DNA of 36,954 bases from a virus. Shown here piece by piece: positions 14,601-29,236 of the stretch; positions within the stretch are counted from its first letter, which is position 1, and each line of letters begins with the position of its first letter. The notes below the pieces were generated by a model. It ran no database searches. It was not told where the DNA came from and worked only from the letters and a program-made list of their open reading frames with translations. The DNA lies in IMG/VR virus record IMGVR_UViG_3300008107_000488, positions 1 to 36,954 of that record; one strand, given 5' to 3'. The position numbers and the translations under genes were made by a program.

Positions 14601-15395
14601 TTACTTATTCAGCATCAATGCATTAAATGTAGAGGGAACCACAATAGTCTGCACCTTGCCGTTCTTGATACCTTCACTAATGTTTAGTGCAGCTTGTGCT
14701 TGCATAAACGCAATACTACTACCTGAATTGTTAGCCAACGCTGCCATACGACGGGACTCAGCCTCTGCTGTTTTGACTTCGACTTCTTTCTGCTTGAGTT
14801 CGTTCTTTGCACGAACCAAGTCATTCGCAGATGCAACAACAGTATCAGCAGGAAGTACGTTACGAATCAGGACTTGACTGATTGTAATATCACCGTCCAG
14901 CTTTTCTTCTGCAAGATTGCGAACAATTTCATCCTTGATAAAATTTTCCATTTCACTACGATTGTCTGCCATGTCCAAGGCTTCGTACTTACGTGCAGCT
15001 TTGTATACAGCATTACGCGCATTTTGCACAATGTAGTTATACATCAAGTAAGTGTCACCCTTATCTGCTGCATGGAACGCTTTGTTCTTTGTAGCAAACA
15101 ACTCAGACACTCTTTGAGGGTTGATGTTGTAGACGATAACGGCATCAAGGTCTTTCATGGTGCTGTTGTCTTTTGCAACAGGTGTCATGTTTTCCAGAAC
15201 CACGTTTACATCCTTTACAGGGAATGTAAGAACATCACCGACCAGCACCTGATTGAATGAACCCGGCAACAACTCACCCTGTTGGACTTGTTTATCAAAA
15301 CCAATACGTACACCGACTTCACCAGTCTCAACACGGGCACAACCCGTGAAGATCAAAGACAAACCAAGCATCAAACTCAAAAACAACTTCTTCAT
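14601..15395 (-). CDS. SPFH/Band 7 (prohibitin-like) lipoprotein
   Basis: 264 residues. Residues 1-19 are a lipoprotein signal peptide with a lipobox-like IFTGC. The mature part is an SPFH domain (residues 23-190: RVETGEVGVRIGFDKQ, ELLPGSFNQVLVGDVLTFPV, MKDLDAVIVYNINP, NAVYKAARKYEALDM) followed by the coiled-coil tail VRAKNELKQKEVEVKTAEAESRRMAAL typical of stomatin and prohibitin proteins. These form large membrane-bound rings. An in-frame start 9 codons upstream exists, but AAGGAGA fits the ATG at 15395. It is flanked by small membrane protein genes (15406-15582 and 14465-14593). Confidence 0.85.
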   Translation of the reverse strand: MKKLFLSLMLGLSLIFTGCARVETGEVGVRIGFDKQVQQGELLPGSFNQVLVGDVLTFPVKDVNVVLENMTPVAKDNSTMKDLDAVIVYNINPQRVSELFATKNKAFHAADKGDTYLMYNYIVQNARNAVYKAARKYEALDMADNRSEMENFIKDEIVRNLAEEKLDGDITISQVLIRNVLPADTVVASANDLVRAKNELKQKEVEVKTAEAESRRMAALANNSGSSIAFMQAQAALNISEGIKNGKVQTIVVPSTFNALMLNK

Positions 15396-15405
15396 AAAAT
15401 CTCCT

Positions 15406-15582
15406 TCAAAACAAAACAACAATTGTGGTAATCACGGCAAATGCTACAAAAGCAGACAACAGTGATTTACCAAGAATCTTGATTGTACTGTACTTTTCTT
15501 TGTTTGTCAATTGCTGCCAAGAAAGATAGCATCCAGCAACAAACAACCAAACCAATACAAACATTAGAATAGCTTTTACCAT
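15406..15582 (-). CDS. Small two-TM membrane protein (58 aa) upstream of the SPFH gene
   Basis: MVKAILMFVLVWLFVAGCYL..., 58 residues with membrane segments at about 4-20 and 39-58 and a charged loop between them (TNKEKYSTIKILGK). AAAGGA precedes the ATG. Its TGA lies within the SPFH gene's ribosome-binding region, so the two are coupled and probably act together at the membrane. Confidence 0.7.
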   Translation of the reverse strand: MVKAILMFVLVWLFVAGCYLSWQQLTNKEKYSTIKILGKSLLSAFVAFAVITTIVVLF

Positions 15583-16790: not shown

Positions 16791-17564
16791 TCAATCCCTT
16801 TCAAGAATATGTTTAACTTTTACAAACTGTTCGGGGTTGTATTCCGCTAGGACTTCAGGGTAGTTGTCAATAGCAAAATCCCTAAACCAACCACTACACA
16901 AAGTAGTGCAGACTTTCTCAAGGCTTTTCATATAAGCCAGTTTACTGCTGCAAGTCCAGTTACTAGGCACTAAGAACCTTTCAACTGAAATCACTTTAGT
17001 TTCTTCAGCTACACAGCGCACTTTGTCTTGGTAACTGAGATTATACCACAAATCTTTGTCGCACCAAACCTTGCTTGTATCCTTCTGTAACTTTATGTAC
17101 AACGGTTTATCATAATACGCCAAAAGCTCATGTAAGTAGTCATGATCGTAAACCTTAGTTACTGCATCGTCAAAGAAGTCAACAACAGATTGTTTCAGGT
17201 TAGGATGACCCTTTGAGAACTCAATGTATGACAGCCTCACCCTGTTTTCATAGTCCTTGTTACAAACCAAGTACTTTGACAAACCATATTTGTGATAGTG
17301 CGTAATGTGCTTACCAAAACTAAGACTGCGCCACAAGTGACTTCGTTTGATAATAGCTAGACCTTCTTCGCACATGACATGAAACCCGTCAAGCAAATGA
17401 CCAGTAGCGTATTTACGCATGTCCCTATTATTCAGGAAATCAGGGTCGTGCCATTCAGTACCAACAATAGCTTCGTCAGAAATAACATCCCAATCCGTAT
17501 CAGGCTTGAGGGTCAAATCTTTTCGCCAGTAAGCCAACGCACGAGAACCGATTAGAACTTTCAT
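16791..17564 (-). CDS. Nucleotidyltransferase-like protein (GSR...DxDxD)
   Basis: 257 residues. The N-terminus has the signature of the DNA polymerase beta / minimal nucleotidyltransferase superfamily: LIGSRALAYW (residues 4-13), then KPDTDWDVIS (residues 20-29) with the D-x-D pair. The rest is helical with many Tyr, His and Lys. Members of this family transfer nucleotides to RNA, proteins or drugs. It lies downstream of two tRNA genes on the same strand and probably the same transcript, which makes RNA a natural but unproven substrate. Confidence 0.6.
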   Translation of the reverse strand: MKVLIGSRALAYWRKDLTLKPDTDWDVISDEAIVGTEWHDPDFLNNRDMRKYATGHLLDGFHVMCEEGLAIIKRSHLWRSLSFGKHITHYHKYGLSKYLVCNKDYENRVRLSYIEFSKGHPNLKQSVVDFFDDAVTKVYDHDYLHELLAYYDKPLYIKLQKDTSKVWCDKDLWYNLSYQDKVRCVAEETKVISVERFLVPSNWTCSSKLAYMKSLEKVCTTLCSGWFRDFAIDNYPEVLAEYNPEQFVKVKHILERD

Positions 17565-18057: not shown

Positions 18058-18086
18058 ATTGTATCACTGATTGCTCAGGTTGTCAA
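18058..18086 (-). promoter_or_regulatory. Consensus sigma70 promoter for the tRNA genes
   Basis: Minus strand: TTGACA (18081-18086), 17-nt spacer, TACAAT (18058-18063), with TG one base before the -10. The -35 lies within the 3' end of the NAMPT-like gene. Predicted start about 18050, four bases before the first tRNA. Confidence 0.85.
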
Positions 18087-19580
18087 GTTCTTTGCAACGG
18101 TATCGCGGATTTCAACCAATGAAGTTTCGGTTACGAGATTACCATCAATAAATACCGTTTGCAAACATCCAAACTTCTCTTGTTCCGGTGTTTGTTGGTC
18201 GTGTAATACATACGTATCGTTTTCAAGCTCAACACGCAACAAACCTTTCGCTGACTTTTTAACACCACTATCAGTGATAGGGTCTTTGAACAACTCAACA
18301 CCTTTGCCGTCACATACACTATATGTTGCTTTCATTGCAAACCCGAATGTGTCACGGGTAACGTATTGGTACGTATAGCTACCCACACCAAACACCACGT
18401 TGCAGCTTGCAAAACCCTTTTGCATCAATCGTTGCATGATATCGTTTGCGCGGTCAAGTGTAATGCTGTCGCCATAGATAAGACCAACACGTTCGTTCAA
18501 GACTTTAAAACCTTTGTCAGTGATTGTACCACCGAATGTGTCCCACAGTAACTCTACAGCACCTTTTTGCTCAGGGGTGTTACCACCAAGTTCATGTGAT
18601 GTACCACACAGAATATCAGCAGGGTCACCAGAGTCAGGTCGAAACACTACTTTAGCGAGTCCCAACTCATTAGGTTTACGATCAAGAATCTCTTGTTTCA
18701 ATGATGGTGCTGTTTCAGTCATCACCTTCCAAAAGTCCCAAGTGTCAGAAACGATGCTGACAAGACCTGTTGGTACAACTTCCGTAATCAATCGCTTGAA
18801 AGTTTCACGCTCATTGACTTTACCACCCGCGCACATAACACTGTGCTCAGTAGCAGGGACAGAGCCACCAATGAACGTATCTTCAGCACCATAGTACGCC
18901 TCCAAGAAGTCATAAGAAGGGATTGTGTCACTACCGAGGAAACTAACCAAGTGCCCTGCACAACTTGCTGCATCATGCAGGTTACTCTGACCACGAAGAC
19001 TGAAGTCATGCGCTTGCCACAACACGAAGTCAATAGGTGAACCTGTTTTAACTGCGTAACCAGTCAACATCTTGCGGTACTCAAAAGCAGTAGTTGCCGT
19101 AGTAATTGGCTTCCAGAGCTCATCACTCAACACTGTTTCCAGATAGTTTGTCAACCAAAAGAATTCAGGCTTTGTGTTCTTGATTGTCAGCACAGGAACT
19201 TTAACGGGAACCAAGCTGCCTTCTGGGAGTGCTTTGATTTCAATAGGGAGATAGCCAAGGTCGTGCAAGTCAGCAATGTGCTGAACATCAACAACACCAT
19301 TACCAAGGGACACATCACAACGCTTTTTGTATTTTGCAAGCACCTGATCTTTTGGTTTGTTGAAGAAACCCTCGTTAAAACTGTCAATCAAGAAGTCCTT
19401 GATGAAGCCTTGCAATCCGAAGAAAACTACCTTATCGATTGTTTTACCACCGACAGTAGGCGCAAGTTTGTTACTGCGAGGTGTGAAGTTGCTATAGATC
19501 ATTTCTGTACCTACAGGGTACATAGCTTTGTGACCTACTTTATAGAAGTCGCAAGCGAAGATTGGGTCAATATATGTCAT
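18075..19580 (-). CDS. Nicotinamide phosphoribosyltransferase-like (NadV / Namat type)
   Basis: 501 residues. Homolog of NAMPT, which joins nicotinamide to a ribose pyrophosphate. Visible are the N-terminal CDFYKVGHKAMYP and YSNFTPR, the active-site segments LWQAHDFSLRGQSN and SVPATEHSVM, SDTWDFW, and VFRPDSGDP. In the phage NAD+ reconstitution pathway NARP1 the NAMPT-like enzyme (Namat) uses ADP-ribose pyrophosphate and makes NAD+ directly. The adjacent PRPP-synthetase-like gene fits that pathway. The ATG at 19580 follows AAAGGA; the longer frame start is rejected. Confidence 0.9.
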   Translation of the reverse strand: MTYIDPIFACDFYKVGHKAMYPVGTEMIYSNFTPRSNKLAPTVGGKTIDKVVFFGLQGFIKDFLIDSFNEGFFNKPKDQVLAKYKKRCDVSLGNGVVDVQHIADLHDLGYLPIEIKALPEGSLVPVKVPVLTIKNTKPEFFWLTNYLETVLSDELWKPITTATTAFEYRKMLTGYAVKTGSPIDFVLWQAHDFSLRGQSNLHDAASCAGHLVSFLGSDTIPSYDFLEAYYGAEDTFIGGSVPATEHSVMCAGGKVNERETFKRLITEVVPTGLVSIVSDTWDFWKVMTETAPSLKQEILDRKPNELGLAKVVFRPDSGDPADILCGTSHELGGNTPEQKGAVELLWDTFGGTITDKGFKVLNERVGLIYGDSITLDRANDIMQRLMQKGFASCNVVFGVGSYTYQYVTRDTFGFAMKATYSVCDGKGVELFKDPITDSGVKKSAKGLLRVELENDTYVLHDQQTPEQEKFGCLQTVFIDGNLVTETSLVEIRDTVAKNLTT

Positions 19581-19593
19581 GATGTTTCCTTTC

Positions 19594-20382
19594 TTAAATA
19601 ACTGTAACTTTGTCAGCAACTTCATTGTTCATCAAGTTGCTTGTATAGATTGTACCATAGTATTTCAAAAGTTCGTCTACTCCCTTGCTGAAAATACCAT
19701 GCGTCACGTAAAGGTCGATAGTCGTATCTGGTTGCGCTACTTTGATGACCTGAGCAAGTGCTATGAATGTAGCTCCACCGTCACAAATGTCATCCACAAC
19801 CACAGCAGTACAACCCAAACTATCGTTTAATTCTTGCGTGTATACAACCTTACCATCTTCGCGTGTTTTCTCAAAGCAAACCAACTTTGTATTATAACAA
19901 TCCGCAACCTCTTTAGCCTTCGCTTTTGCACCCTTATCAGGAGCAACGATTGAAGCGTAATCCCCCGCCAACTGAAAATCCTGCTTTCTTTCAATAAAAT
20001 TGATACCAGACTCAGTTAGTAGGGTTTTTGATACATTACTATGCAAGTCTCTAACAACCAATGTCCCAAAGTATGCTGTTGAAAGTAGTTTTACGAACAC
20101 CTCCAACGCGAAGGACTCGCCAGTAGAACAGACACGATCTTGTCGTGCATAAGGTAAGTACGGTAAGTGCAAGGTAACGCCTTCTTTGTAGAACCCTTGG
20201 TGCTTCAGTGCGTTAAGAATGTTTAGCATGTGCATTATGTTGCTTGCATCTACAATTCCAGTTACAAAAACATCTGCGGAAGTACCCTTACGTTCTGACA
20301 GTTTTACACCAACCTCCCCACCGGGGAAAGTCCAAGTTTTGACTTCTACACTAAAGTTGTCGTCAATCACTACTTCGATCAT
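19594..20382 (-). CDS. Ribose-phosphate pyrophosphokinase-like (Prs / Adps type)
   Basis: 262 residues (bacterial Prs about 315). Transfers pyrophosphate from ATP to ribose 5-phosphate or, in Adps of NARP1, to ADP-ribose. Motifs in order: LPYLPYARQDR (73-83), DLHS (112-115), VAPDKGAKAKA (146-156, the catalytic-loop region) and the PRPP-binding VVVDDICDGGATF (194-206), then YVTHGIFSKG. It is immediately upstream of the NAMPT-like gene. Bases 19905-19941 are copied exactly (37 nt) into the RNA ligase gene at 28643-28679. AAAGGA precedes the ATG. Confidence 0.9.
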   Translation of the reverse strand: MIEVVIDDNFSVEVKTWTFPGGEVGVKLSERKGTSADVFVTGIVDASNIMHMLNILNALKHQGFYKEGVTLHLPYLPYARQDRVCSTGESFALEVFVKLLSTAYFGTLVVRDLHSNVSKTLLTESGINFIERKQDFQLAGDYASIVAPDKGAKAKAKEVADCYNTKLVCFEKTREDGKVVYTQELNDSLGCTAVVVDDICDGGATFIALAQVIKVAQPDTTIDLYVTHGIFSKGVDELLKYYGTIYTSNLMNNEVADKVTVI

Positions 20383-20554
20383 ACAGTCCTTTCGTTTCTA
20401 AATTGTCAAACAAATTATGCTTTTCGCACAAAGTAACCCACAAACAATGATACAGCTTTTCTAACTCGGATTCTGGAACTGCTACGTTTTGTTGCATACC
20501 GCTATCTCGGTGAAATTCTAGAACCTGACTGTTCCGATTATACACGAAGTTCAT
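20363..20554 (-). CDS. Small hypothetical protein
   Basis: 63 residues, MNFVYNRNSQVLEFHRDSG.... Not recognised. The 3' end overlaps the start of the PRPP-synthetase-like gene by 20 bp and covers that gene's ribosome-binding site; the 5' end overlaps the upstream gene by 4 bp. Confidence 0.62.
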   Translation of the reverse strand: MNFVYNRNSQVLEFHRDSGMQQNVAVPESELEKLYHCLWVTLCEKHNLFDNLETKGLYDRSSD

Positions 20555-20778
20555 GTCTTCGTTTTCTTAAAGTTGGGGTAGCACCAATCCTTGACGTAAC
20601 CTCCGTCTTGTATACCTTCTGCTGTGCAAAGTACATTCCGGATATTAAGGGGCCAGAAGCGTTTAGCAGAAAGACCAAACGGTGTTTGCTTTGCAAATGT
20701 CTTTGTTACCTCGCCATCGAAATCCAACAGATATACGACTTCTTGTCGTGTAATAAAAGCCCATATGTTATAGAACAT
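20551..20778 (-). CDS. Small hypothetical protein
   Basis: 75 residues, MFYNIWAFITRQEVVYLLDFDGEVTKTF.... Beta-rich N-terminal half and an aromatic C-terminal half (WCYPNFKKTKT). AAGGAGAAATA precedes the ATG. No family recognised. Confidence 0.65.
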   Translation of the reverse strand: MFYNIWAFITRQEVVYLLDFDGEVTKTFAKQTPFGLSAKRFWPLNIRNVLCTAEGIQDGGYVKDWCYPNFKKTKT

Positions 20779-28077: not shown

Positions 28078-28100
28078 TTTGTAAATTGAAAGGAGAAGAT

Positions 28101-29236
28101 ATGTCTGAACGAAAAATGGCTACAATTCGTCGTATTGCAGAAGTAAAAGCAATCGAAGGCGCTGACCGCATTGTTGCTTATCGGGTTGATGGTTGGTATG
28201 TTGTTGACAGCAAGGATAAATATCAAATAGGTGACTTGGTAGTGTATTGTGAACCTGATTCGTGGGTTCCGCATAGCATTGCACCGTTCTTGACCAAACC
28301 AGATCAGTTCCCAAAGGTTTACAAGTCCGTAGAAGGTCAGAAGCTACGAACGATTAAACTTAAGGGTCAGTTGTCTCAAGGCTTGTTGTTACCTTTGTCC
28401 CAAAGTGATCACGACAAAAATCAGGCACTGATTGACTGGTTTGTTGTAGAGCACGGTGGTAATGATGGGTGCCCTCGTGTCAGTGAAGGTGATGACGTTT
28501 CTGAAATCCTTGGTATCCAGAGATGGGAAGCTGATATTCCTGCACAACTTCAAGGTCAAATGAAGGGTTCATTCCCTAGCTTTATCCGCAAAACAGACCA
28601 AGAACGGGTTCAGAATATCCGTGACTTAGGCCAGTACAAATACCTGATAAGGGTGCAAAAGCGAAGGCTAAAGAGGTTGTTCAGAATATCCGTGACTTAG
28701 GCCAGTACAAAGACACTATGTTTGAAGTTACTGAGAAGCTCGAAGGCTCGAGTCAATCCGTGTTCTTTTACAACGGTGATTTCGGTGTATGCAGTCGTAA
28801 TGTAGAACTGAAAGATGATGGGGTTAACACGTTCTGGCAGGTAGCAAAGCAATACAACTTGGAATATAAGTTGCGTGGCTTCGGGAAGAACATTGCAATT
28901 CAGGGTGAACTTATTGGCCCTAATATTCAGGGCAACATCTATAAACTGCAAGCACCAGATTTCTATGTGTTTGACATTTTTGACATTGATAAACAGCAGT
29001 ACTTTGTATCAAGAGATCGTCGTATTCTTTGCCAACTACTTGGATTAAAGCATGCCCCATTGATCGATAAAATTTATGGTTTTGCAACAAACAATGAGTA
29101 TCTTTTATTTGCAGAAGGTAAGTCAGTTCTCAATCCGAGTCAAGAGCGCGAAGGATTGGTATTCAAAGCATTAGGTGGTGGTTTTAGCTTTAAAGCCGTC
29201 AGCAACCACTACCTTGTTAAACAGAAAGGAAATTAA
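28101..29236 (+). pseudogene. RNA ligase (DRB0094/Rnl5-like), interrupted by a 71-bp insertion
   Basis: Without the insertion this is a 354-residue RNA ligase: an N-terminal OB-like domain (KMATIRRIAEVKAIEGADRIVAYRVDGWYVV, GDLVVYCEPDSWVP, RTIKLKGQLSQGLLLPL) and a nucleotidyltransferase domain with motif I EKLEGSS (catalytic Lys), GELIGPNIQGN and REGLVFKA. As sequenced, 71 bp after base 28640 shift the frame: the first part stops at 28700 and the catalytic part could restart at the ATG at 28718. The insertion is 28641-28711, made of a prs-derived segment and a repeat of 28608-28640. Motif I lies in the downstream piece, separated from the N-terminal domain. Confidence 0.85.
28608..28711 (+). 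repeat. 33-bp direct repeat flanking a 37-nt copy of the prs-like gene
   Basis: 28608-28640 and 28679-28711 are identical (33 bp, period 71). Between them, 28643-28679 is identical to the reverse complement of 19905-19941 in the PRPP-synthetase-like gene. Two bases (TA, 28641-28642) have no visible source. Removing 71 bp restores the RNA ligase frame. Confidence 0.95.

Follow-up and report, generated by a model that had tools for sequence, protein, structure and literature searches.

In the NARP1 pathway, NAD+ is rebuilt in two steps by the enzymes Adps and Namat (PMC12774641, PMC13232231), and a mycobacteriophage NARP1 operon was found to be partnered with a cADPR-cleaving enzyme (PMC13232231). 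From the crystal structure of Namat of Bacillus phage SPbetaL1, the NAD+-contacting residues were listed and tied to the use of ADPR-PP (PMC12774641). Adenine is held by a helix with the consensus GSX(phi)X(phi)X(phi)TRD and by a clamp loop, the variable element of the clamp, in which either an Arg or the residue after a Lys or Tyr stacks on adenine (PMC12774641). SPbetaL1 Namat still turns PRPP into NMN in vitro (PMC12774641). Expressed in E. coli, the NAMPT-fold protein NadV of Haemophilus ducreyi produces NMN (PMC6095924).

Here we analysed an entire IMG/VR virus record (36,954 bp, linear, CheckV completeness not given; hereafter the window), which is probably a fragment. It carries a pair of Prs-like and NAMPT-like genes that we regard as very probably a phage NARP1 system for NAD+ reconstitution, based on the clamp-helix motif, the Adps-type partner and the family placement of both predicted proteins.

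Gene layout of the locus

The initial annotation had described a Prs-like and a NAMPT-like gene standing side by side in that order. Both ORFs were indeed found adjacent on the minus strand, where the Adps-like gene comes first, the Namat-like gene follows 13 nt later and AAAGGA precedes each of them (Table 1). The ORF list starts the NAMPT-like gene at 19625. However, the ATG at 19580 has AAAGGA 6 nt before it, just past the stop codon of the Prs-like gene, and since this Shine-Dalgarno sequence stands just before 19580, the gene most likely starts there, internal to the listed ORF. The Adps-like gene overlaps a short ORF that in turn overlaps a second one, so that the two genes seem to form the end of a compact operon. 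No near-identical DNA was detected among named phages, and PADLOC returned nothing useful for the window.

Table 1 Features of the Adps-Namat-like locus (positions within the window)
Feature	Position	Strand	Description
Namat-like gene	18075..19580	-	NAMPT homologue; predicted nicotinamide ADP-ribose transferase; 501 aa
Namat selectivity-clamp helix motif GSYTYQYVTRD	18351..18383	-	Residues 400-410; fits the published consensus (PMC12774641)
Shine-Dalgarno AAAGGA of the Namat gene	19587..19592	-	Within the 13-nt intergenic gap; read directly
Adps-like gene	19594..20382	-	Prs homologue; predicted kinase converting ADP-ribose to ADPR-pyrophosphate; 262 aa
Adps-type ribose-phosphate loop DDICDGGATF	19765..19794	-	Residues 197-206; from alignment
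63-aa ORF	20363..20554	-	Upstream, overlaps the Adps start, same direction; from ORF list; no Pfam match
Shine-Dalgarno AAAGGA of the Adps gene	20387..20392	-	Read directly
75-aa ORF	20551..20778	-	4-nt overlap with the 63-aa ORF, same direction; from ORF list; no Pfam match

Just downstream of the Namat gene are two tRNA genes (Arg and Met). A strong sigma-70-like site (18058-18086; TTGACA-17-TACAAT, 11/12, extended -10) extends into the end of the Namat gene directly ahead of tRNA-Arg; it may drive the two tRNAs, with promoter counts overall near chance. Downstream of the tRNAs, a 257-aa DUF7275/DUF7277 protein is encoded (16791-17564) that matches phage families of unknown function.

The NAMPT-like protein resembles Namat

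The NAMPT-like ORF matched the Pfam families NAPRTase (1.4e-37) and NAMPT_N (1e-8) as well as PHROG 448 (1.1e-194). Its best PDB matches were the SPbetaL1 Namat entries 9w5w and 9w5x (533 bits, 52% identity), compared to 464 bits for H. ducreyi NadV (9ke8, 9keo) and about 246 bits for mammalian NAMPT. A model computed with AlphaFold2 from window and contig sequences (pLDDT 86.5) gave the same order: in a Foldseek search, ranks 1-7 were SPbetaL1 Namat chains (TM 0.90-0.91 by query), followed by H. ducreyi NadV and then by mammalian NAMPT.

We then read the Namat contact positions from an alignment of 40 proteins. The catalytic core is intact in the window protein (F189, R192, D215, R306, D308 and the catalytic His; SPbetaL1 numbering), and the clamp helix has both aromatics (Tyr at 392 and 396) plus the TRD, as does SPbetaL1 Namat. 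The contact positions are occupied by the SPbetaL1 residues or by usual family variants; for the clamp loop the picture is less clear, a Lys standing at the position of Arg40 and being followed by Leu, where the residue after Lys would be expected to stack. A further difference from SPbetaL1 is Ser for Ala at 362. In contrast, all six canonical phage NAMPTs of the comparison (from KVP40-like ValKK3, a T4-like Klebsiella phage, BcepSaruman, pEa_SNUABM_49, Aes508 and Caulobacter phage S2L) show GG-type motifs at the clamp-helix site.

In a careful phylogenetic tree, the Namat side was separated from canonical NAMPT with 100/100 support and the window protein fell on the Namat side, while deep support in the Namat trees was moderate. 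The protein of locus L166, considered as a canonical NAMPT, was rejected as such because another tree grouped it with the Namat side; the careful tree left it out.

H. ducreyi NadV serves as a natural control for this placement. It shares 48% identity with the window protein and groups on the Namat side, yet both clamp aromatics are lost from its helix, GAQTYQRNTRD. Among the eight annotated genes of its plasmid pNAD1 (5.6 kb), we found no Prs gene. Since this NMN-making enzyme sits on the Namat side, tree position alone is insufficient proof of ADPR-PP use, and overall similarity to Namat was likewise rejected as proof.

The Prs-like partner is of the Adps type

The partner ORF matched Pribosyltran_N (1.5e-8) and Pribosyltran in Pfam, as well as PHROG 619, ribose-phosphate pyrophosphokinase (3.1e-64). 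An AlphaFold2 model (pLDDT 87) has the PRPP-synthetase fold, and the alignment shows that the RQDR, DLHS and KxR pair motifs are kept. The protein is nevertheless distant from every housekeeping Prs, with a best PDB match of only 3.7e-13. Adps and housekeeping Prs were separated with 100/100 support in the careful tree and with 98 SH-aLRT in a larger set. The window protein stands among the Adps proteins together with SPbetaL1 Adps and a Felix-like member, its precise position within them not being fixed. It is divergent (39% identity at best; about 24% to SPbetaL1 Adps). The trees called for when the locus was annotated group the two proteins with NARP1 enzymes, apart from canonical PRPP synthetase and canonical NAMPT.

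Two other properties were discarded as evidence. The TIGR01251 score of the Prs-like protein (108-110 bits) is below the 113-bit cut-off, as are those of SPbetaL1 Adps (106 bits) and of the Acinetobacter partner, but Felix-like Adps is above it (137 bits), so the score does not discriminate Adps from Prs. The protein had also been described as short; the length of 262 residues is correct, yet it is not unusual, since the Adps homologues collected span 250-313 aa with a median of 284. A scan of viral contigs with the Prs protein alone yielded 14 stretches that fit a pattern, none of which was a relative by tblastn.

A distinctive feature of the partner is a loop which, in PRPP synthetases, grips the 5'-phosphate of ribose 5-phosphate. 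In ten housekeeping Prs proteins from ten bacterial genomes, this loop reads DDM(V/I)DT(A/G)GTL or a close variant, and the window loop DDICDGGATF differs from all ten. Most Adps-like proteins have DDICDGGxTF, and the Acinetobacter Adps-like proteins are identical to the window at this site. The signature is thus common but not universal, as the validated SPbetaL1 Adps reads DDLSSFGGTF. Gly in place of the phosphate-gripping Thr would be in keeping with a substrate that carries AMP on its 5'-phosphate, and DDICDGGxTF may mark ADPR use at the residue level, SPbetaL1 being among the exceptions. Since the structure of Adps is still unsolved (PMC12774641), the loop difference amounts to a concrete residue-level prediction.

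Pairing and comparison with other phage loci

A Prs-like neighbour was present in 37 of the 39 phage loci with the Namat motif (the two exceptions include one truncated contig) and in none of the canonical-NAMPT loci (0/6 in phages; 0/6 in bacteria, where flanks were only about 1.5 kb long), although these counts are non-independent owing to shared ancestry. The phage loci were fetched mainly by the NAMPT-like protein.

The two-gene arrangement of SPbetaL1 is identical in order, with Adps upstream of Namat and abutting it. Escherichia phage JH2, our proxy for the tested Felixounavirus Bas63, has adjacent Adps and Namat genes as well, and its helix motif is GSYTYQYMTRD. However, JH2 Namat is only 36% identical to the window protein, and the JH2 pair adjoins rIIA/rIIB, whereas the window pair lies between DNA polymerase and exonuclease. 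Canonical NAMPTs of KVP40-like and T4-like phages share the fold and the core active site but are only about 31% identical, carry a GGGLLQ..RD-type motif and have no Prs neighbour.

In Rheinheimera phage Barba19A (locus L048), a macro-domain gene (2184-2687) stands directly upstream of the Adps-Namat pair and is a possible supplier of free ADP-ribose. No macro domain was found in the window. Neither was an RyR (RyDEP) domain, for which the control genomes gave no match either.

Bacterial relatives and NrtR-type neighbours

Among the matches listed, the closest relatives of the window Namat are bacterial chromosomal proteins (63-64% identity). A scan of bacterial genomes yielded at least 80 Namat-type loci (L050-L129). 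An Adps-like gene is near most of the best 80, located upstream in the operons of Acinetobacter, Marinomonas and others. A further locus, L003 (CAKLQF020000015.1), is labelled Acinetobacter phage MD-2021a, but the surroundings of its locus look like bacterial chromosome (ABC transporters, regulators and efflux genes).

The chromosomal operons differ from the window pair in that a regulator of the NrtR type is near most of them, while none adjoins the window pair. In 61 of the 80 loci, among the matches listed, a homologue of an Acinetobacter Nudix protein was found nearby. The annotation of this Acinetobacter neighbour as an NMN adenylyltransferase (NMNAT)/ADP-ribose pyrophosphatase was rejected, since its domains are NUDIX and an NrtR winged helix; this combination was present in all four Nudix neighbours tested with Pfam. 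NrtR-type regulators sense ADP-ribose (PMC9503650, PMC12735969), which fits ADPR as the substrate. For the NARP1 of the bacterium Paenibacillus foliorum, activity has been shown in vitro as well as in vivo (PMC12774641), so the association is consistent with a NAD+ repair operon induced by ADPR, and the frequent NrtR neighbour suggests a role in such induced repair for bacterial NARP1. Our search, which did not extend to the founding NARP1 and NrtR papers, found no publication linking NrtR with NARP1, and the link may already be known.

Affinity of the phage and origin of the pair

The DNA polymerase and the helicase of the window phage are 64% identical to those of Pseudomonas phage vB_PsaM_M1 (Ounavirinae), and both phages share the gene order ribonucleotide reductase, thymidylate synthase, exonuclease, polymerase, helicase. 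The window phage thus looks Ounavirinae-like, as Felixounavirus does. Where the window has the Adps-Namat pair, M1 has a homing endonuclease and small ORFs after the polymerase. No match to the window Namat was found in M1, and none to the window Adps in a search that had no positive control.

Two further genes of the window were recorded. An RNA ligase is seemingly split over two ORFs in different frames (28086-29236), with a PHA02142 OB-fold part at 28086-28700 and an RNA ligase C-terminal part at 28718-29236. An SPFH/Band 7 domain protein is encoded at 14601-15422; an SPFH protein also occurs in Pseudaeromonas phage KLEP7, where a related primase-helicase is encoded as well.

The window Namat being closest to bacterial proteins, and only distantly similar to that of JH2, suggests an acquisition separate from that of Felixounavirus. 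Tentatively, and with somewhat less than even confidence, we propose that NARP1 entered this phage from a bacterial chromosomal, NrtR-linked operon for ADP-ribose recycling, independently of the Felixounavirus NARP1.

Discussion

How the pair would work can be outlined from the described pathway. Adps would transfer pyrophosphate from ATP onto ADP-ribose, yielding ADPR-PP, and Namat would join ADPR-PP and nicotinamide to give NAD+ and pyrophosphate, a route for which no NMN adenylyltransferase would be needed. Host NADase defences (TIR, SIR2 and SEFIR effectors) yield ADP-ribose and nicotinamide, so that the pair, if expressed in the course of infection, would replenish NAD+ and allow the phage to replicate. 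Substrates, activity and anti-defence role, including any protection against Thoeris or DSR, are deduced here from the sequences of the two proteins. Some observations weigh against the NARP1 reading: the clamp loop with its Lys-Leu is unclear, SPbetaL1 Namat itself retains the use of PRPP, the window Adps is divergent and the loop signature has exceptions.

The same two genes could instead serve canonical nicotinamide salvage, in which the Prs-like protein would convert ribose 5-phosphate to PRPP, the NAMPT-like protein would make NMN and the NMN adenylyltransferase of the host would complete NAD+. In favour of salvage, neither protein has departed from the ancestral fold or lost its catalytic residues, PRPP is still accepted by Namat enzymes in vitro, and the NMN maker H. 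ducreyi NadV groups on the Namat side. Yet it is the adenine-clamp aromatics, lost in NadV, that are present in the window protein. Its partner is not a housekeeping-type Prs, either by tree or by its ribose 5-phosphate loop, and the canonical phage NAMPTs examined have no Prs neighbour. We therefore consider salvage improbable. Still less probable is a general aid to nucleotide metabolism, with the Prs-like protein providing PRPP for DNA precursors and the NAMPT-like protein unrelated to defence. The phage does encode a large nucleotide-synthesis set (including ribonucleotide reductase, thymidylate synthase and dCMP deaminase), but the close spacing of the two genes, a Prs-like family almost always paired with Namat and a loop unlike that of PRPP-making enzymes all argue against this explanation.

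NARP2, which combines NAMPTs of the KVP40-like/T4-like type with an adenylyltransferase, had been disfavoured in the initial annotation because no NMNAT gene appeared in the window. The absence itself held: we found no NMNAT/CTP_transf_like nucleotidyltransferase fold in the window, while all control genomes gave matches. As an argument for NARP1 over NARP2 it is weak, since the record is probably a fragment, and an adenylyltransferase encoded elsewhere in the genome would have gone unseen for the same reason. The KVP40-like/T4-like NAMPTs, our non-NARP1 comparison, differ from the window protein in their clamp motif and have no Prs neighbour, and a NARP2-type route is in our view extremely improbable. 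Stronger grounds for NARP1 than the missing NMNAT come from the clamp motif and from the Adps-type partner.

The NARP1 reading of the pair makes it a new example of a known and widespread phage system whose pathway was described recently. With Nampt/Namat homologues present in 1,920 phage records of INPHARED, a further case is of an ordinary kind; its assignment to the pathway, as far as sequence can make it, is strong. A well-supported NARP1 is thereby added for an Ounavirinae-like phage, while none was detectable in the closest sequenced relative. The locus also provides sequence controls that help to tell NARP1 from ordinary nicotinamide salvage: a Prs-like neighbour, the loop signature of Adps, and the aromatic clamp residues, which H. 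ducreyi NadV has naturally lost. If the proposed bacterial origin is true, one and the same host pathway for NAD+ repair would have been taken up repeatedly by related phages.
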